Of a stretch of 64,000 nt of DNA, positions 23,290-33,768 are shown one piece after another (the stretch's first letter is position 1; each line of letters opens with the position of its first letter). The DNA lies in contig NZ_JAFFZE010000011.1 of the NCBI RefSeq assembly GCF_025165815.1, positions 1 through 64,000 on the forward strand. Direction: 5' to 3'. This DNA is from Actinophytocola gossypii. GTDB lineage: Bacteria; Actinomycetota; Actinomycetes; Mycobacteriales; Pseudonocardiaceae. The notes beneath the pieces are model-generated. The model did no database searches, had not been told where the DNA came from, and saw only the letters and a list, made by a program, of their open reading frames with translations. The translations under genes and the position numbers were made by a program.

Positions 23290-24339
<1,050 letters not shown>

Positions 24340-24432
24340 CTGGGATCCACCTTGGTTGCTTCGAGGCCGTTTCGAACTCACGCTTCGACGCTATCTGGAA
24401 GGGGCGACAATTTCGGGCCGCGGGCGGCGGCC

Positions 24433-24766: not shown

Positions 24767-24871
24767 ATGCAGCCGACCAGCCTCGAGGCCATCCTGCTCG
24801 ACATCGCGATCATCGCGGTGCTGGTGACCTCGATCGTGCTCGGCATCCGGGCGCTGCGGAACCGCCGCTAG
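24767..24871 (+). CDS. Small single-pass membrane protein (34 aa)
   Basis: An ATG at 24767, preceded by GGAG at a 10-nt spacing, opens a 34-codon frame ending at TAG (24869-24871). The peptide is one hydrophobic helix (ILLDIAIIAVLVTSIVLGI) followed by a basic tail RALRNRR, a typical small inner-membrane protein. It is transcribed divergently from the DUF3046 gene (start 24731), and its end overlaps the end of the convergent VOC gene by 4 bp. Function is unknown; its reality rests on the ribosome binding site and the coherent membrane helix. Confidence 0.55.
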   Translation: MQPTSLEAILLDIAIIAVLVTSIVLGIRALRNRR

Positions 24872-25254
24872 GCGGGCTGGATCAGGTCCCAGGCGTTGCC
24901 GTGGAGGTCCCGGAACACCGCGACCGTGCCGTACGGCTCCCGGCGCGGCTGCTCGTCGAAGCGCACGCCGTTGGCCAGCATCCTGGCGTGGTCGCGGGCG
25001 AAGTCGTCGGTGTGCAGGAACAGGCCGACCCGTCCGCCGGTCTGGTCGCCGACGCGGGCCTCCTGCGCCGCCCCCACGGCCCTGGCGAGCAGGACGCCGG
25101 TCTCCCGGGCACCGGGCGGGGCGACCACGACCCAACGTTTGCCGTCGCCCAGCGGGGTGTCCTCGCGCAGCTCGAACCCGACCGCGCGGGTGTAGAACTC
25201 GATCGCCTCGTCGTAGTCGCGGACGACGAGCGTCACCAGTCCGAGGTGTGGCAC
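24868..25254 (-). CDS. VOC family (glyoxalase/bleomycin-resistance-like) protein
   Basis: This 128-aa single VOC domain starts GLVTLVVRDYDEAIEFYTRAVGF and ends with the typical VAVFRDLHGNAWDLIQP, which supplies a metal ligand position. Such proteins are small metal-dependent isomerases, dioxygenases or drug-binding proteins; the substrate cannot be told. The GTG at 25254 lies 1 bp after the stop of the Hsp70-like gene, so it may be the last gene of that operon. Confidence 0.85.
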   Translation of the reverse strand: MPHLGLVTLVVRDYDEAIEFYTRAVGFELREDTPLGDGKRWVVVAPPGARETGVLLARAVGAAQEARVGDQTGGRVGLFLHTDDFARDHARMLANGVRFDEQPRREPYGTVAVFRDLHGNAWDLIQPA

Positions 25255-25255
25255 G

Positions 25256-27028
25256 TCAGGTTCCTGGCTGGACGCTGGCCTCGAAGAAGTCCGCCAGCAC
25301 GTCCGGGGTGAAGTCGTCGCCGGCGCGCAGGTCGGTCTTGGTGAGCCAGCCGACCAGCGGCCGGTCCTCGACGGTGAACACCAGCACGCCGGTGCCACCG
25401 CTGACCCCGGCCCGGTAGCTGCCGTCGAGGCCGTTGCCGCGCCACCGCGCCGTCACGTGCTCGCCCTCGTTCATGCTGCCGAGCTGGGCGTTCGCCACCT
25501 GGCTGGCGTCGTCCACCGACGCCACGTGGGCGTAGTTGACCCGGTAGTCCTCCGGCAGCGCGCACACCACGTCCGCGTTGGAGTCGTCGCCCGCCGGCTG
25601 GCACTCTTCGGTGTCGGCGACCTGGCCGGCGAGCTGGCGCAGGCATGAGCTGAACCCGTTCTCGTCGGTCTCGCCCTTCTGCTGGCAGCTCTCCGCGGTG
25701 GGCAGGTCGCTGTCCGGGCGGAGCAGGAACACGGCTGCCACGGCGACGGCCGCGACCACCACGACGGCGGCGACGCCGAGCAGTGCCCGGTTGCGCCGGG
25801 GGCGAGCCGGGGGTTGCGGGGCGGGTTGCGGGGTCGTCGGGTACGCGAGGGGTGGCCGGGGTGTCGGCGGGGTGGGCGGGCCGGTCGGCGTGGCCGGGGG
25901 CGGCAGCTGCGGTGGCGGCGCCGGCATGCCGCCGATGTCGCGGGTGCGCATGCTCATGCCTTCCTGCGACACGTGGTGCGCGCCGAGGGCGACGGCGGTC
26001 TCCGGCTGGTCGAGCGAGGTCGGCACGACGTTCAGCTGTTCGGCGATCAGGGTCGCCACCAGCGGGATCCGGCTCGAACCGCCGACCAGGTAGATGCCGG
26101 CGAGCCGGTCCGGGGACAGGCCCGTGGTGCGCACGGTGCCGGCCAGCAGCTCGACGCTGCGCAGCAGGCTTGGCCGGATCAGCGCCTCCAGTTCGGCGCG
26201 GGTGACGAGCACGTCCGGGAACGGCTCGGGCAGCGGCACCTCGGTCTGCGGGTGCCGGGACAGCGACTCCTTGGCGGCCTTGACGTCCTCGCGCAGCGCA
26301 CGCTGGGCGCGCCGGTCGGCGGTGGTCTCCGGCCGCAGCATCGCCTGCCAGCGGCCGGGCTCGCGGTGCGAGACCTGGCGACCGACGTGTTCGAGCAGGG
26401 CCTGGTCGACGTCGAGGCCGCCGAGGTCCGGCAGGCCCGCCTCGGCGAGCACGGCGAACCCGGTCTGGGTGGCGCCGACGATGGCGACGTCGAACGTGCC
26501 GGCACCCAGGTCGTAGACGGCGATGGCCTGGTTGGGCGCGAGCGCCTGACCGGGGAAGGAGGCGAAGTGCGCTGCGGCCGCGACCGGTTCCGGTACGAGC
26601 ACCAGGTTCGGGCCGAGGCCAGCCAGCCGGGCGGCGGCGAGCAGGACGTTGCGGCGCACCGGGCCCCACTGGGCGGGGTGGGTGAGCCGCACCTCGTCGG
26701 GTTTGGCCCCGCCGAGCTGGCGGGAGGTCTCGTCGGCCACCCGGCGCAGGACGGCGGCGAACGCGTCGGTGACCGGCACGACCTTGTCCCCGAGCAGCAG
26801 GGTGCCCTCGTCGACCCGCCGTTTCGGGTTGGGCTCGAACCGCGCGGGGTCGAGTCGGGCGCGGCGCTCGGCGTCCCGGCCGACGACGAGACCGCCGTCG
26901 TCGTCGGCGAACAGCGCGGAGGGCATGGTCGCGGAGCCGTCGACCTCGACCACTCTGGGCGGGCGGCCGTGTGCGGCGAGGACGGCGACGGTGTTGGACG
27001 TGCCCAGATCGACCGACAGGACGGTCAC
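25256..27028 (-). CDS. Membrane-anchored Hsp70-like ATPase with cysteine-rich ectodomain (copy 2)
   Basis: This 590-aa protein begins with an Hsp70-type actin-like ATPase domain (about 1-355; phosphate-1 VDLGTSNT at 6-13, phosphate-2 DLGAGTFD at 173-180, adenosine motif VGGSSRIP at 315-322). It lacks a substrate-binding domain. A proline-rich linker leads to one membrane helix (about 418-439), then an ectodomain of about 150 residues with four cysteines in the same order as copy 1. The GTG at 27028 overlaps the TAG of copy 1 by one base. The ATPase domains are near-identical between copies, the ectodomains diverged. I infer a cytoplasmic ATPase signalling to, or driven by, an envelope sensor domain. 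No DnaJ or GrpE partner is nearby. Confidence 0.85.
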   Translation of the reverse strand: MTVLSVDLGTSNTVAVLAAHGRPPRVVEVDGSATMPSALFADDDGGLVVGRDAERRARLDPARFEPNPKRRVDEGTLLLGDKVVPVTDAFAAVLRRVADETSRQLGGAKPDEVRLTHPAQWGPVRRNVLLAAARLAGLGPNLVLVPEPVAAAAHFASFPGQALAPNQAIAVYDLGAGTFDVAIVGATQTGFAVLAEAGLPDLGGLDVDQALLEHVGRQVSHREPGRWQAMLRPETTADRRAQRALREDVKAAKESLSRHPQTEVPLPEPFPDVLVTRAELEALIRPSLLRSVELLAGTVRTTGLSPDRLAGIYLVGGSSRIPLVATLIAEQLNVVPTSLDQPETAVALGAHHVSQEGMSMRTRDIGGMPAPPPQLPPPATPTGPPTPPTPRPPLAYPTTPQPAPQPPARPRRNRALLGVAAVVVVAAVAVAAVFLLRPDSDLPTAESCQQKGETDENGFSSCLRQLAGQVADTEECQPAGDDSNADVVCALPEDYRVNYAHVASVDDASQVANAQLGSMNEGEHVTARWRGNGLDGSYRAGVSGGTGVLVFTVEDRPLVGWLTKTDLRAGDDFTPDVLADFFEASVQPGT

Positions 27029-28980
27029 TAGGCCCCTCCGTCGCTGCCCGGCTTGACGTGTTCGTCGTAGAAGTCGGTGAGCGAGCCGCCGCCGCTGCTG
27101 GTCAGGTCGACGCGCATGAGCACGCCGAGCAGCGGGGCGTCGTCGACCTGGAAGAGCAGCACACCGGCGCCGCCCGCCTCGTACGCGGTGTAGGTGCCGT
27201 TGAGCCCGTTGCCGTCCCAGTCGCCCTTCGTCGGGTCGGTGCCCATGCCGAGGTTCTCGAACTGCTGGTTGAACGTGTCGACGTAGGTCTTGGCGTTGTC
27301 CACGCCCGACCGCTCGCTGCCGTCGGCGTTCTCCGAGGAGCCGAAGTGCATGTACATGACCGTGTAGTCGTCCTGCATGGTGCAGGAGGCCACGGTCGCG
27401 CCGGGGGTCTCGAGGTTCCCCCCGCCCATCGGGTTGGTCGCGCCCTCCTGGCAGTCGTTGTGCTCCGGCACGGAACCGGCGAGGTCGCGCATGCACGGGC
27501 TGAAGCCCTGGTCGTCTGGTTTGCGGTCGGAGCAGGCGCCGGCCGCGGTGTCGCCCTCGCCCTCGCCGCCGCCGGAGGTGGCGATGAGGATGCTGACCAC
27601 CGCGACCACGACGACCGCGACCACCGCGGTGGCGATGTACCAGGGCTTGTTGTTCGACCCCGTCGCGGCGGGCTGCGGGGGCGGCGGGCCGAAGGCGGGG
27701 GTCGGCCCGGTCGGCGGGCGGGGCGGCAGCTGTTGGGGACCGGACGGCGGACCGGTCGGCACGCGCTGGGGGCCGCTGGCCGGGAACGGGTTCTGTGCCG
27801 GGGTGGCGCCGGTGGGTGGCGCGGCGAACGCGGCCGGCGGGGGGACGACCTTGGCGGTGCGCTGGACGTCCTCGATGGTGTTGCTGATGTCGCTGGTGCG
27901 CATGGTGGCGCCGTCGCGGGGCACGTGGTGGGCGCCGAGGGCGACGGCGGTCTCCGGCTGGTCGAGCGAGGTGGGCACGACCTTGAGCTGCTCGGCGATG
28001 AGGGTGGCGATCAGCGGGATCCGGCTGGAGCCGCCGACCAGGTAGATGCCGACGAGCCGGTCGGCGGTCATGCCGGTGGAGCGGATGGTGCCGGCGAGGA
28101 GTTCGACGCTGCGCAGCAGACCGGGGCGGATCAGCGCCTCCAGCTCGACCCGGGTGACCAGCACGTCGTCGAACGGTTCCGGCAGCGGCACCTCGGTCTG
28201 CGGGTGCCGGGACAGCGACTCCTTGGCGGCCTTGACGTCCTCGCGCAGCGCCCGCTGGGCACGGCGGTCGGCGGTGGACACCGGGCGCAGGAGGCTCTGC
28301 CAGCGGCCCGGTTCGCGGTGCGAGACCTGGCGGCCGACGTGTTCGAGCAGGGCCTGGTCGACGTCGAGGCCGCCGAGGTCGGGCAGACCCGCCTCCGCGA
28401 GGACGACGAAGCCCTTCTGGGTGGCGCCGACGATGGCGACGTCGAACGTGCCGGCGCCGAGGTCGTAGACGGCGAGCGCCTGGTTGGGCGCGAGGGTCTG
28501 GCCGGGGAAGGAGGCGAAGTGCGCGGCGGCCGCGACCGGTTCGGGGACGAGCACCAGGTTGGCGCCCATGCCGGCCTGGCGGGCGGCGGACAGCAGCACG
28601 TTGCGCCGGACCGGGCCCCACTGGGCGGGGTGGGTCAGCCGCACCTCGTCCGGCTTGCCGCCGCCGAGCTGGCGGGAGGTCTCGTCGGCGACGCGGCGGA
28701 GCACGCCGGCGAGCGCGTCGGTGACCGGCACGACCTGGTCACCGAGCAGCAGGGTGCCCTCGTCGACGCGCCGTTTCGGGTTGGGCTCGAACCGGGCCGG
28801 GTCGAGTCGGGCGCGCCGTTCGGCGTCCCGGCCGACGACCAGGTTCCCGTCCTCGGCGGCGAACACCGCGGACGGCATCATCGACGCTCCGTCCACGTCG
28901 ACCACCCGCGGGGGCCGGCCGTAGGCGGCCAGCACGGCGACCGTGTTGGAGGTGCCGAGGTCCACCGACAGGACGTTCAC
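27028..28980 (-). CDS. Membrane-anchored Hsp70-like ATPase with cysteine-rich ectodomain (copy 1)
   Basis: This 650-aa protein has the Hsp70 ATPase domain (1-355), a Pro/Gly-rich linker (about 375-445), a membrane helix (about 447-468) and an ectodomain (469-650) with C483, C496, C510 and C533, enough for two disulfides. The second phosphate loop reads DLGAGTFD where DnaK has DLGGGTFD. Catalytic residues otherwise look intact. The GTG at 28980 follows GGGGAGAG. It is first in a two- or three-gene operon with copy 2 and the VOC gene. The architecture recalls other actinobacterial Hsp70-family membrane proteins of unknown role; topology (N-in, C-out) is predicted from the TM and basic residues. 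Confidence 0.87.
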   Translation of the reverse strand: MNVLSVDLGTSNTVAVLAAYGRPPRVVDVDGASMMPSAVFAAEDGNLVVGRDAERRARLDPARFEPNPKRRVDEGTLLLGDQVVPVTDALAGVLRRVADETSRQLGGGKPDEVRLTHPAQWGPVRRNVLLSAARQAGMGANLVLVPEPVAAAAHFASFPGQTLAPNQALAVYDLGAGTFDVAIVGATQKGFVVLAEAGLPDLGGLDVDQALLEHVGRQVSHREPGRWQSLLRPVSTADRRAQRALREDVKAAKESLSRHPQTEVPLPEPFDDVLVTRVELEALIRPGLLRSVELLAGTIRSTGMTADRLVGIYLVGGSSRIPLIATLIAEQLKVVPTSLDQPETAVALGAHHVPRDGATMRTSDISNTIEDVQRTAKVVPPPAAFAAPPTGATPAQNPFPASGPQRVPTGPPSGPQQLPPRPPTGPTPAFGPPPPQPAATGSNNKPWYIATAVVAVVVVAVVSILIATSGGGEGEGDTAAGACSDRKPDDQGFSPCMRDLAGSVPEHNDCQEGATNPMGGGNLETPGATVASCTMQDDYTVMYMHFGSSENADGSERSGVDNAKTYVDTFNQQFENLGMGTDPTKGDWDGNGLNGTYTAYEAGGAGVLLFQVDDAPLLGVLMRVDLTSSGGGSLTDFYDEHVKPGSDGGA

Positions 28981-29139: not shown

Positions 29140-32100
29140 GTGAGTTCCTCCGACGACGTGCTCGAGCTGTTCTCGCCGGCGACCAGGCAGTGGTTCACCG
29201 GCGCGTTCGCCGCGCCGACCGGTGCGCAGGCCGGTGCGTGGCGGGCGGCCGCGGCGGGTGAGCACGCGTTGGTGGTGGCGCCGACGGGGTCGGGCAAGAC
29301 GCTGGCGGCGTTCCTGTGGGCGCTCGACCGGCTGGCGTCGAGCCCCCGGCCGGCCGAGCGGACGCGGCGGTGCCGGGTGCTGTACGTGTCGCCGCTGAAG
29401 GCGTTGGCGGTGGACGTGCAGCGGAACCTGCGGGCGCCGCTGGCCGGCATCGGGCAGGCGATGCACCGTCTCGGGCTCGGCGAGCCGGGGATCACGGTGG
29501 GCATGCGCACCGGGGACACGCCGGCCGAGGAGCGGCGCGCGTTCGCCCGCACGCCGCCGGACGTGCTGGTGACCACACCGGAGTCGCTGTTCCTGCTGCT
29601 CACGTCCGCGGCGCGGGAGTCGCTGCGCGGCGTGGAGACGGTGATCGTGGACGAGGTGCACGCGGTGGTCGGCACCAAGCGCGGGGCGCACCTGGCGTTG
29701 TCGCTGGAGCGGCTCGACGAGCTGCTGCCGGCGCCGGCGCAGCGGATCGGGCTGTCCGCGACGGTGCGGCCGATCGACGAGGTGAGCTCGTTCCTGGCCG
29801 GGCCCCGGCCGGTCACGGTGGTGGCGCCGTCGATCGGCAAGACGATCGAGATGCGGGTGGTGGTGCCGGTCGAGGACATGACCGAGCTGGACACCCGGCC
29901 ACCGCCGGACGGGCCCCGCACACCGGACCCGGATCTCGACCCGGACGATCCGGAGCCGCCGCGCCGGCCGTCGATCTGGCCGGCGGTCGAGGAGCGGGTG
30001 CTGCAGCTGGTCCGCGAGCACCGGTCGACGATCGTGTTCACGAACTCGCGGCGGCAGGCGGAGCGGCTGACGTCGCGGCTGAACGAGCTGGCCAGTGAGC
30101 AGACCACCGAGCGTGCGGTGTACCCGGCCGACGTGGGGCGGTTCCCGGCGGAGGCGATCGCGGAGTCGGGCTGGGCGGCGGGGGTGGCGAACCCGACGGT
30201 GGCCAGGGCGCATCACGGCTCGATGTCGCGGGAGCAGCGGACCTCGGTGGAGGAGGACCTCAAGTCGGGGCGCCTGCCGTGCGTGGTGGCCACGTCGTCG
30301 TTGGAGCTGGGCATCGACATGGGCGCGGTCGACCTGGTGGTGCAGATCGAGGCGCCGCCTTCGGTGGCGTCCGGCATGCAGCGGATCGGCCGGGCGGGGC
30401 ACCAGGTGGGGGCGGTGTCGCGCGGGGTGATGTTCCCGAAGTTCCGCGGTGACCTGGTGTCGTGCGCGGTGGTGGCGGAGCGGATGGCCGAGGGCGCCAT
30501 CGAGTCGATGCGGTACCCGCGCAACCCGCTGGACGTGCTGGCCCAGCAGGTGGTGGCGATGGTGGCGCTGGAGCCGTGGCCGGTCGAGGAGCTGGCGGCG
30601 GTGGTGCGCCGGGCGGCGCCGTTCGCGGGGCTGCCGGACAACGCGCTGCACTCGGTGCTGGACATGCTGGCCGGGCGGTACCCGAGCGAGGAGTTCGGCG
30701 AGCTGCGGCCGAGGATCACCTGGGACCGGATCAACGGGGAGCTGCGCGGTCGGCCGGGGGCGCAGCGGTTGGCGGTCACCTCGGGCGGCACCATCCCCGA
30801 CCGTGGCCTGTTCACCGTGATGACGCCGCCGGGCGAGAGCGGGCCCGGTTCGCGGGTGGGCGAGCTGGACGAGGAGATGGTGTACGAGTCGCGGGTGGGC
30901 GACACGTTCCTGCTCGGCACGTCGGCGTGGCGGATCGAGGACATCACCCACGACCGGGTGATCGCGGTGCCGGCGCCGGGCGAGCCGGCGCGGATGCCGT
31001 TCTGGAAGGGCGACTCGCCGGGGCGGCCGCTGGAGCTGGGGCGCGCGCTGGGGCGGTTCCTGCGCGAGGTGTCCGGCATGGCCGAGCCGGCGGCGCGGGC
31101 GCGGGCCGGCGACGCGGGGCTGGACCCGCTGGCGGCGAACAACCTGATCGCGTACCTGGCGGAGCAGAAGGCGGCCACCCGGCACGTGCCGGACGACCGC
31201 ACGGTGCTGGTGGAGCGGTTCCGCGACGAGCTTGGCGACTGGCGGCTGGTGGTGCACTCGCCGTTCGGGGCGCAGGTCAACGCGCCGTGGGCGCTGGCGA
31301 TCGGCGCGCGGCTGCGGGAGCGGCGCGGGGTCGAGGGCCGGGTGGCCCACTCCGACGACGGCATCGTGATCCAGCTGGCGGACACGGTCGACGACGAGGG
31401 CCGCGAGGTGGTGGCGAACGCGGAGGACGTGCTGCTCGACCCGGAGGAGGTGGAGCAGATCGTGGTCGCGGAGGTGGGCGGCTCGGCGCTGTTCGCCTCG
31501 CGGTTCCGGGAGTGCGCGGCGCGCTCGCTGCTGCTCCCCCGGCGTGATCCTCGCCGGCGGACCCCGCTGTGGCGGCAGCGGCAGCGGTCGGCGCAGCTGC
31601 TGTCGGTGGCGGCGAAGTACGAGCGGTTCCCGGTGGTGCTGGAGGCCATGCGGGAGTGCCTGCGGGACGTGTACGACGTGGACGGCCTGCGGGAGCTGAT
31701 GGCCGACGTGCGGGCGCGGCGGGTGCGGGTGGTGGAGGTGGAGACGCCGTCGGCGTCGCCGTTCGCGCGGAGCCTGCTGTTCGGGTACGCGGGCATGTTC
31801 CTCTACGACGCCGACCAGCCGCTGGCGGAGCGGCGGGCGGCGGCGTTGTCGCTGGACAGCTCGCTGCTCGCGGAGCTGCTGGGCTCGGAGGCGATCCGGG
31901 AGCTGCTGGACGTCGAGGTGCTGGCCGAGGTGGAGCGGTCGCTGCAGCGGCTGGAGCCGGAGCGGGCGGCCCGGCACGCCGAGGACGCGGCCGACCTGCT
32001 GCGGTTCCTGGGTGACCTGTCGGCGGCGGAGGCGCGGGCGCGGGGGGTGCGGCCGGAGTGGCTGGCGGAGCTGGAGCGGCAGCGGCGGATCATCCGGGTG

Positions 32101-33768
32101 CGGATCGCCGGCGAGGAGCGGTTCGCGATCGTCGAGGACGCCGGGCGGCTGCGGGACGCGCTGGGCACGGCGCTGCCGGTCGGGGTGCCGGAGGCGTTCA
32201 CCGAGCCGGTCGCCGACCCGCTGGGTGACCTGCTGTCCCGGTACGCGCGGACGCACGGGCCGTTCCCGGCCACGGTGGCGGCGGAGCGGTTCGGGCTGGG
32301 GGTCGCGGTGGTCACCGGCGTGCTGGAGCGGATGGTCGGCACCGGCCGGATGGTGCGCGGGGAGCTGCGGCCGGGCGGGACGCACATGGAGTACTGCGAC
32401 GCCGACGTGCTGCGGCGGCTGCGGCGGGCGTCGCTGGCCCGGCTGCGAGCCGAGGTGGAGCCGGTGGAGCCGGCGGCGTTGGGCCGGTTCCTGCCGGTGT
32501 GGCACGGGGTGGGCAAGCGGTTGCGGGCGGCGCCGAGCGCCGAGGACGTGCTGTCGGTGGTGGAGCAGCTGGCGGGGGCGCCGCTGCCGGCGAGCGCGCT
32601 GGAGTCGCTGGTCCTGCCGTCGCGGCTGCCCGGGTACACCCCGGCGCTGCTGGACGAGCTGACCACGGCCGGCGAGGTCACCTGGTGCGGCACGGGTGCG
32701 CTCGCGGGCGGCGACGGCTGGGTCGCGGTGGCCCCGACGGACGTCGCCGACCTGCTGCTGCCGGACGTGGAGGAGGCGGTGCCGGACACGCCGCTGCACA
32801 CGGCGGTGCTGGCGGCGATGGACGGAGGCGCGTTGTTCTTCCGGCAGCTCGCCGAGCGGGTGGGCGCGGCGCTGGTGGACGGCGGCGCGGAGGTCCCGGC
32901 GGACGCGGAGGTCGTCGCGGCGTTGTGGGACCTGGTGTGGGCGGGACTGGTCACCAACGACACGATCGCGCCGCTGCGTGCGCTGGTGGCCGGGCGCGGG
33001 GCGGCGCACAAGCCGCGCGCGTCCGCGCCGCGTGGGCGGTACGCGCGGCTGCGCGGGGCCCGGCCGGCGATGCCGAGCCGGACCGGACCGCCGACGGCGG
33101 CGGGGCGGTGGTCGCTGGTCACGCCGCGCGAGCTGGATCCGACGCGGCGCGCGCACGCCCGCGCGGAGTCGTTCCTGGAGCGGCACGGGGTGCTGACCAG
33201 GGGTGCGCTGGACACCGAGCGGGTGTCGGGCGGGTTCAGCGGGGTGTACAAGGTGCTGCGCGCGATGGAGGAGTCGGGGCAGATCGTGCGCGGTTACGTG
33301 GTGGAGGGGCTCGGCGCGGCGCAGTTCGCGGCCCGGGGGGCGGTGGACCGGCTGCGTGCGCTGTCCCGGTCCGACGGCACGCCCGCGCCGGGTGCGGACC
33401 TGGTGGCCAGGGTGCTGGCGGCGGCCGATCCGGCGCAGCCGTACGGGGCGGCGTTGCCGTGGCCGGACCCGGTCGGGGACGGGAAGCACCGGCCGGGGCG
33501 CAAGGCCGGGGCGCTCGCCGTGCTGGTCGACGGGGAGCCCGCGCTGTACGTGGAGCGCGGCGGGCGGTCGCTGCTGTCGTTCACCGAGGACGACGCGGCG
33601 TTGCGGGCGGCGGCCGAGGCGCTGTCCAGGGCGGTGCGCGAGGGCTGGCTCGGGCAGTTGGCGGTGCGGAAGGCGGACGGCGAGGTCGCGTTGACCTCGA
33701 ACCTGTCCGCCATCCTGCGCGACGCCGGCTTCCGCGCAACGCCCAACGGGCTACGCCTGCGCGCCTGA
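29140..33768 (+). CDS. lhr: Large helicase-related protein, Lhr-type ATP-dependent helicase
   Basis: This 1542-aa superfamily 2 helicase has motif I APTGSGKT, motif II DEVH, motif III SAT, and motif VI QRIGRAGHQ in the first 550 residues, followed by the long winged-helix and Lhr-specific C-terminal domains with a DUF1998-free end, the usual Lhr length. Lhr is a 3'-5' helicase linked to DNA repair and induced by DNA damage in mycobacteria. The GTG at 29140 is preceded by a weak GGTGGGG. I see no LexA box upstream. Its 3' end overlaps the convergent regulator gene by 18 bp. Confidence 0.93.
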   Translation: MSSSDDVLELFSPATRQWFTGAFAAPTGAQAGAWRAAAAGEHALVVAPTGSGKTLAAFLWALDRLASSPRPAERTRRCRVLYVSPLKALAVDVQRNLRAPLAGIGQAMHRLGLGEPGITVGMRTGDTPAEERRAFARTPPDVLVTTPESLFLLLTSAARESLRGVETVIVDEVHAVVGTKRGAHLALSLERLDELLPAPAQRIGLSATVRPIDEVSSFLAGPRPVTVVAPSIGKTIEMRVVVPVEDMTELDTRPPPDGPRTPDPDLDPDDPEPPRRPSIWPAVEERVLQLVREHRSTIVFTNSRRQAERLTSRLNELASEQTTERAVYPADVGRFPAEAIAESGWAAGVANPTVARAHHGSMSREQRTSVEEDLKSGRLPCVVATSSLELGIDMGAVDLVVQIEAPPSVASGMQRIGRAGHQVGAVSRGVMFPKFRGDLVSCAVVAERMAEGAIESMRYPRNPLDVLAQQVVAMVALEPWPVEELAAVVRRAAPFAGLPDNALHSVLDMLAGRYPSEEFGELRPRITWDRINGELRGRPGAQRLAVTSGGTIPDRGLFTVMTPPGESGPGSRVGELDEEMVYESRVGDTFLLGTSAWRIEDITHDRVIAVPAPGEPARMPFWKGDSPGRPLELGRALGRFLREVSGMAEPAARARAGDAGLDPLAANNLIAYLAEQKAATRHVPDDRTVLVERFRDELGDWRLVVHSPFGAQVNAPWALAIGARLRERRGVEGRVAHSDDGIVIQLADTVDDEGREVVANAEDVLLDPEEVEQIVVAEVGGSALFASRFRECAARSLLLPRRDPRRRTPLWRQRQRSAQLLSVAAKYERFPVVLEAMRECLRDVYDVDGLRELMADVRARRVRVVEVETPSASPFARSLLFGYAGMFLYDADQPLAERRAAALSLDSSLLAELLGSEAIRELLDVEVLAEVERSLQRLEPERAARHAEDAADLLRFLGDLSAAEARARGVRPEWLAELERQRRIIRVRIAGEERFAIVEDAGRLRDALGTALPVGVPEAFTEPVADPLGDLLSRYARTHGPFPATVAAERFGLGVAVVTGVLERMVGTGRMVRGELRPGGTHMEYCDADVLRRLRRASLARLRAEVEPVEPAALGRFLPVWHGVGKRLRAAPSAEDVLSVVEQLAGAPLPASALESLVLPSRLPGYTPALLDELTTAGEVTWCGTGALAGGDGWVAVAPTDVADLLLPDVEEAVPDTPLHTAVLAAMDGGALFFRQLAERVGAALVDGGAEVPADAEVVAALWDLVWAGLVTNDTIAPLRALVAGRGAAHKPRASAPRGRYARLRGARPAMPSRTGPPTAAGRWSLVTPRELDPTRRAHARAESFLERHGVLTRGALDTERVSGGFSGVYKVLRAMEESGQIVRGYVVEGLGAAQFAARGAVDRLRALSRSDGTPAPGADLVARVLAAADPAQPYGAALPWPDPVGDGKHRPGRKAGALAVLVDGEPALYVERGGRSLLSFTEDDAALRAAAEALSRAVREGWLGQLAVRKADGEVALTSNLSAILRDAGFRATPNGLRLRA

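Follow-up and report, generated by a model that had tools for sequence, protein, structure and literature searches.

A tandem gene pair with Hsp70-type ATPase domains

The window analysed here (that is, 64,000 nucleotides of Actinophytocola gossypii, contig NZ_JAFFZE010000011.1, positions 1–64,000 of the forward strand, in a genome of 7.4 Mb) carries on its minus strand two adjacent genes, gene A (hspA; 27028–28980, 650 amino acids (aa)) and gene B (hspB; 25256–27028, 590 aa), that have the same architecture: an Hsp70-type ATPase or nucleotide-binding domain (NBD), a linker, a predicted transmembrane (TM) segment and an ectodomain with four cysteines. Both begin with GTG, and base 27028 is common to the TAG stop of gene A and the GTG start of gene B, which is the one-base overlap described in an earlier sequence-only reading of the window. 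The start of gene A at 28980 is inferred from homologues and from the purine-rich stretch that precedes it, and we take the longer upstream frame that holds this gene in the list of open reading frames (ORFs) to be a chance open frame in GC-rich DNA.

The ATPase domain occupies 27919–28980 of the minus strand in gene A (approximately residues 1–354) and 25967–27028 of the same strand in gene B, and the best stretch of the Pfam HSP70 profile (PF00012) covers residues 90–350 in both proteins, with 109.5 bits in A and 120.9 bits in B against a cut-off of 20.6. Because this stretch stops at position 368 of 599 in the profile, the remainder of each protein being linker, TM segment and ectodomain, the substrate-binding half is absent, as had been stated from the sequence; the two ATPase halves had also been called almost identical, and their likeness holds at a figure of 88% identity over 365 aa. 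Alignment with DnaK of the same genome places the Hsp70-type catalytic residues and motifs in both proteins, with part of the IIB region shortened, and yields no VLLLD-type interdomain linker in either; in gene A this linker is replaced by a conserved post-NBD segment (27853–27924, minus strand; motif V-x-x-[DE]-G-x-x-x-R-T), which in the A type is followed by a predicted helix (residues 365–376) in a region of low model confidence. Across 97 complete copies from 79 loci, the window included (the fragments L031_c2 and L044_c3 and one cut NBD match of L044 were left out), the motifs DLGTSNT, NPKRR, PEPVAA and YDLGAGTFD are each kept in all 97, GG[SP]SR in 90 and the R-T of the post-NBD motif in 88.

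HSP70 and MreB_Mbl are the only Pfam matches of A and B, a protein kinase domain not being found, and the MreB_Mbl match, weaker than that of HSP70, also lies above its cut-off of 27 (36 bits in A and 33 bits in B). Actin and Hsp70 NBDs have a common fold, and together with this match it could be taken to favour a membrane-anchored actin-like scaffold, with an NBD that would form polymers as MreB or FtsA does and an ectodomain that would tie the filaments to the wall; we regard such a scaffold as very improbable. An envelope foldase or holdase (that is, a genuine chaperone that would bind exported proteins with its ectodomain, under the control of the cytosolic ATPase) would be in keeping with the Hsp70 ancestry of the NBD and with the best, if weak, Foldseek match of the ectodomain, SciW (E 4.8e-3), which we take to be an effector chaperone of the type VI secretion system. 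The absence of the substrate-binding domain and of the DnaK linker argues against this explanation, as do the residues V, P and V found at the DnaK positions R167, N170 and T173, which are presumably J-domain contacts, and the invariance of P146 and V149 in 47/47 aligned sequences; we therefore consider it improbable.

The linker contains 21% proline over the 97 homologous copies and measures 44–137 aa (median 92), and, since it is long, proline-rich and of low model confidence, rigid transfer of force or signal is disfavoured; the proline-rich linker of the sequence-only reading thus stands, and its suggestion of a mechanoenzyme loses ground. A hydropathy scan (19-residue windows, cut 1.6) predicts one strong hydrophobic segment in each protein, at 27580–27636 in gene A (3.07) and at 25727–25783 in gene B (2.96), both on the minus strand; additional windows at or above the cut number none in A and one, at 1.61, within the NBD of B, with weak extras in 48/97 copies. 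Because lysine and arginine are more numerous in the 15 residues before the TM segment than in the 15 after it (95/97 copies; equal in the other 2/97), the NBD is predicted to lie inside and the ectodomain outside, in agreement with the single TM helix and the extracytoplasmic domain proposed previously.

The ectodomain, its locus and the wider family

The ectodomains of gene A (27031–27579, minus strand; Cys483, 496, 510 and 533) and gene B (25259–25726, minus strand) contain exactly four cysteines each, as do those of 96/97 complete copies in the family, the remaining one having five. Among the 96 ectodomains that were aligned (L033_c2, whose ectodomain is unrelated, being left out of the alignment and of these counts), the four cysteine columns are kept in 96, 96, 94 and 96, at an identity between A and B of 33%, which bears out the earlier description of ectodomains that have drifted while keeping their cysteines. 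As a guess from the secondary structure, the first cysteine may pair with the second and the third with the fourth. The AlphaFold model of the B ectodomain (25259–25705, 149 aa), a prediction that the same reading had proposed, is a compact domain with a mean pLDDT of 94.7.

The ectodomain matches no catalogued family in the libraries searched. Hand-chosen sequences numbered 46 in set A1 (from which L044_c1 was left out) and 47 in set A2; 46 ectodomains scanned against Pfam and NCBIfam had only scattered weak matches, each in at most two members (best E 0.011 and 0.0056), a PDB sequence search gave no match at E up to 10, and Foldseek against the PDB and the viral library gave none that reached E 0.001, so that no well-characterised domain that would reduce the novelty claimed for the pair emerged from any of these searches. 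Rv0361_Cterm was rejected as the identity of the domain, its weak matches (E 0.056 and 0.17) covering the TM region only. TIGR03931 matched neither A, B nor any of the 46 ectodomains, and hhalign gave a probability of 0.1 against a TIGR03931 profile built from four sequences; a relative of PknH_C (PF14032) was not matched in the genus, yet the control genomes gave no match either. On other carriers the domain was not seen: in six same-genus genomes, with every first-look candidate scored, its profile matched only the 12 copies of the lhr–recA locus at E up to 1. At E 0.01 it matched in 32 of 249 genomes of the order and in 27 of 42 in the family (at most 14 candidates being scored per genome), and all 12 loci inspected by eye among the weaker matches in the order read as Hsp70-type NBD, hydrophobic segment and ectodomain. 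In the distant members L156 and L157, at least two separate matches to the ectodomain profile lie within one protein.

The pair is flanked by a divergent lhr-type helicase gene (29140–33768, plus strand) and, downstream, by recA (23290–24381, minus strand), both named by reading the sequence. The search for this architecture and its neighbours, likewise proposed earlier, took the best 80 of 130 matches to A and yielded 78 related loci (contig ends truncate at least L044, L082 and L098), with an lhr-like gene upstream on the opposite strand in 72, recA downstream in 75 and both flanking in 70; the best database relatives belong to Actinophytocola. Directly downstream of gene B lies a VOC/glyoxalase gene (24868–25254, minus strand; PF00903), which is not a conserved neighbour (2/78 related loci at E 1e-8), and the consensus of the HAIR-type heat-shock operator had no exact match in the window. 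The hsp gene is single-copy in 62/78 related loci (for example, between lhr and recA in Amycolatopsis and Saccharothrix), and two or more copies occur in the window and in 16/78 loci (5 Actinophytocola, 10 Actinokineospora and Labedaea); A stands alone in two Actinokineospora loci (L035 and L041), and for the other single copies the best score is that against B. All of the genomes of the genus searched (6/6, that of the window included) have both copies, one of them also a third, and matches to protein A number 8 to 13 per genome in these six, DnaK and fragments included. Across the phylum, at least 6 of 149 genomes match at E 1e-35 (own genome included, with up to 8 candidates scored per genome).

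Several of these loci have features of their own. In L033, L094 and L098, RecA appears as two overlapping tblastn pieces approximately 1 kb apart, a pattern suggestive of an intein in RecA, and a fragment between copies A and B of L031 (9005–9112) matches the first approximately 36 residues of the NBD and is likely to be a remnant of another duplicate. Two record labels may be wrong: L047, labelled Rhodococcus rhodnii, has the layout and near-identical positions of Kibdelosporangium loci, and L098, labelled as an Actinophytocola bin, groups with Thermocrispum.

Related NBD–TM genes carry different ectodomains, even at the same locus, and on these comparisons the NBD and the ectodomain act as independent modules. 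Two genes of the window's genome, L004 and L006, combine an NBD 72–73% identical to that of A with a TM segment and an ectodomain of 424–428 aa that is propeller-like and, together with that of L028 from another genome, forms a set approximately 50% identical to each other (PQQ_2 scores 26.9 bits in L028, just below the cut-off of 27.6, gives only E 0.042 in L006 and is not matched in L004). Another genome of the genus has an Exop_C (that is, galactose-binding-like) ectodomain in L170 and L171 (113.5 and 104.8 bits; cut-off 26.1). A LuxR-type response-regulator gene (L191:10829–11494; Pfam) lies divergently next to one of two Exop_C-type genes examined, and for the other a like regulator gene (L190:7882–8658) lies, by eye, beyond a short kinase-like ORF; L190:5283–6203 reads as a histidine kinase. 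At the lhr–recA locus itself, a third copy in another species (G003; L033 second copy, L021:1042–2844) has an unrelated four-cysteine ectodomain, with no Pfam match outside the NBD. The layout of NBD, TM segment and ectodomain also recurs in L023, L025 and L026, and tandem NBD–TM gene pairs occur at two further loci of one genome (L161 and L162). A further five genes (L008, L166, L172, L177 and L179) encode Hsp70-type NBDs with proline- or charge-rich tails and no TM segment by the hydropathy cut; L008 may be a pseudo-ATPase, since key residues of its phosphate-2 and catalytic motifs are missing.

Within this family, L007 of the same genome combines an Hsp70-type NBD, a proline-rich linker and one TM segment with a TIGR03931 ectodomain (101.4 bits, cut-off 47.6; of L007, L023, L025 and L026, which share the layout of this type, the scan covered L007) and adjoins genes that read by eye as EccC, EccD, a mycosin and a WXG protein. 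This paralogue could serve as the prototype of an assembly or export factor, that is, a membrane-tethered ATPase that aids the assembly of an envelope or secretion complex or the release of exported proteins, with the ectodomain as an outside docking part; consistent with such a role, rv3446c has been listed with the genes gained at the origin of ESX-4 (PMC4791881). Around the window pair, however, no secretion gene was seen, the lhr–recA setting is kept in 70/78 loci, the ectodomain of the pair does not match TIGR03931 (in the four-sequence comparison given above) and a docking part is not expected to evolve at the speed described below, so that we consider this role unlikely for A and B, if less so than the scaffold or the chaperone.

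History of the duplication and evolutionary rates

In each of 16 genomes, the identity between the NBDs of A and B (79–91%) is below the best identity between A copies of different species (93–99%), and on this ground we take the duplication to be old and not a recent copying event; recent gene conversion is not needed to explain the alike ATPase halves, given the same relation in 16/16. Trees (51 NBD rows and 50 ectodomain rows, hand-chosen from the 97) support this history for A, the A copies of both genera (Actinophytocola and Actinokineospora) falling into one supported group of the NBD tree, and give a less tidy picture for B. In the ectodomain tree, B from both genera makes up a single group (16 rows, support 100/99). 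Two observations weigh against a clean duplication: in the NBD tree the B copies form two separate groups, with weak deep branches, and the NBD of B is often nearer to its own A (79–91%) than to the median B of others (83–86%). A faster-evolving B would explain both; old or partial conversion or exchange of the NBD may be an alternative.

The two halves of the proteins evolve at different speeds. Median identities between the window and 10 Actinokineospora loci are 90% for RecA, 81% for Lhr (best aligned piece, here and below), 92% for the A NBD, 43% for the A ectodomain, 83% for the B NBD and 61% for the B ectodomain, and against 5 Actinophytocola loci the corresponding values are 95, 86.5, 96, 62, 90 and 75%; by these medians the NBD of A is conserved like RecA, whereas its ectodomain is not. 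The ratio of nonsynonymous to synonymous substitution rates (dN/dS; Nei–Gojobori, five within-genus pairs) is 0.04–0.08 for the A NBD and 0.52–0.77 for the A ectodomain, and 0.08–0.16 and 0.30–0.44 for those of B. In 30-codon windows over six Actinophytocola copies, dN/dS reaches 0.88–1.19 in the last five windows of A, and the last three of B lie at 0.21–0.35 and are preceded by one at 0.79.

These rates fit two receptors, one of which meets a changing ligand, and the separate ligand specificity suggested by the sequence-only reading predicts two ectodomains that evolve differently, as they do here. Relaxed constraint on the A ectodomain is the plain alternative to a changing ligand. Of the paired sensor proposed in the same reading, a duplication with diverging ectodomains stands, whereas an obligatory pair does not, single copies being the rule among the related loci.

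A receptor-type reading and known systems

The architecture looks more like that of a cell-surface receptor than of a chaperone, and we suggest, with our judgement evenly divided, that each gene encodes a single-span, N-in receptor-type ATPase in which an Hsp70 ATP/ADP switch lies under an exchangeable ectodomain. The ectodomain would recognise a ligand of the envelope or the extracellular space, and ligand binding might cluster or position the proteins by way of the flexible tether, the membrane-tethered NBD then gripping or letting go of a conserved cytosolic partner according to its ATP/ADP state; its ATPase activity is predicted to be independent of J-domain proteins. In this scheme a constant output would come from the NBD and an exchangeable input from the ectodomain, an arrangement like that of receptor Ser/Thr kinases but with an Hsp70 ATPase where these have the kinase, and the A/B pair would be a receptor that was duplicated to give similar outputs for two different inputs, namely a B ectodomain with a conserved C-terminal sheet and a fast-changing A ectodomain.

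More tentatively, actinobacterial ‘receptor Hsp70s’ could possibly constitute a further receptor class beside histidine and Ser/Thr kinases, in which swappable ectodomains (four-cysteine, propeller-like, carbohydrate-binding and secretion-associated) control an Hsp70 switch that docks a conserved cytosolic partner, tandem pairs providing like outputs with two inputs. No description of an Hsp70 NBD as the inner half of a membrane receptor was found in the open-access literature searched. Known parts make up the architecture, and one branch of the family already has a catalogue entry (TIGR03931); what appears to be new is the class of Hsp70 NBDs as the inside half of receptors, and the undescribed system claimed from the sequence is accordingly qualified, as the ectodomain matches no catalogued family searched, whereas the architecture is that of a larger actinobacterial family with a TIGR03931-matching relative. 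If this reading is correct, receptors have taken over an Hsp70 ATPase domain as their cytosolic half; a set of paralogues would gain a candidate function and the Rv3446c component of ESX-4 a context, and the A/B pair would offer a natural experiment in receptor duplication.

Among known systems, DnaK/HscA-type chaperones resemble the pair in NBD fold and catalytic motifs and differ in having the substrate-binding domain, the VLLLD-type linker and the complete IIB region, whereas A and B have a TM segment and an ectodomain instead. The ESX-4-associated component of the type VII secretion system (T7SS_Rv3446c, TIGR03931), represented by L007, has the same succession of Hsp70-type NBD, proline-rich linker, TM segment and C-terminal ectodomain; the window ectodomain is not detectably related to it by sequence (against that four-sequence profile), and L007 lies in a secretion cluster (by eye), whereas the pair lies between lhr and recA. 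Hsp70 domains that lack the peptide-binding domain, as in the window pair, are described for GAP1-N2 conflict systems, mainly in actinobacteria and firmicutes (PMC7159879); there they accompany a GTPase system, GrpE and a full Hsp70, and the available part of that paper mentions no fusion to a TM segment and ectodomain. The closest working analogue is provided by the receptor Ser/Thr kinases PknH and PknD, which have a single TM segment and, like the pair, join a cytosolic nucleotide-using module to an outside sensor, the module differing in being a protein kinase domain, which was not found in A or B. The PknH sensor has two disulfides and a cleft and the PknD sensor is a propeller (PMC3601408), and these two forms are paralleled by the four-cysteine and propeller-like ectodomains of the Hsp70–TM family.

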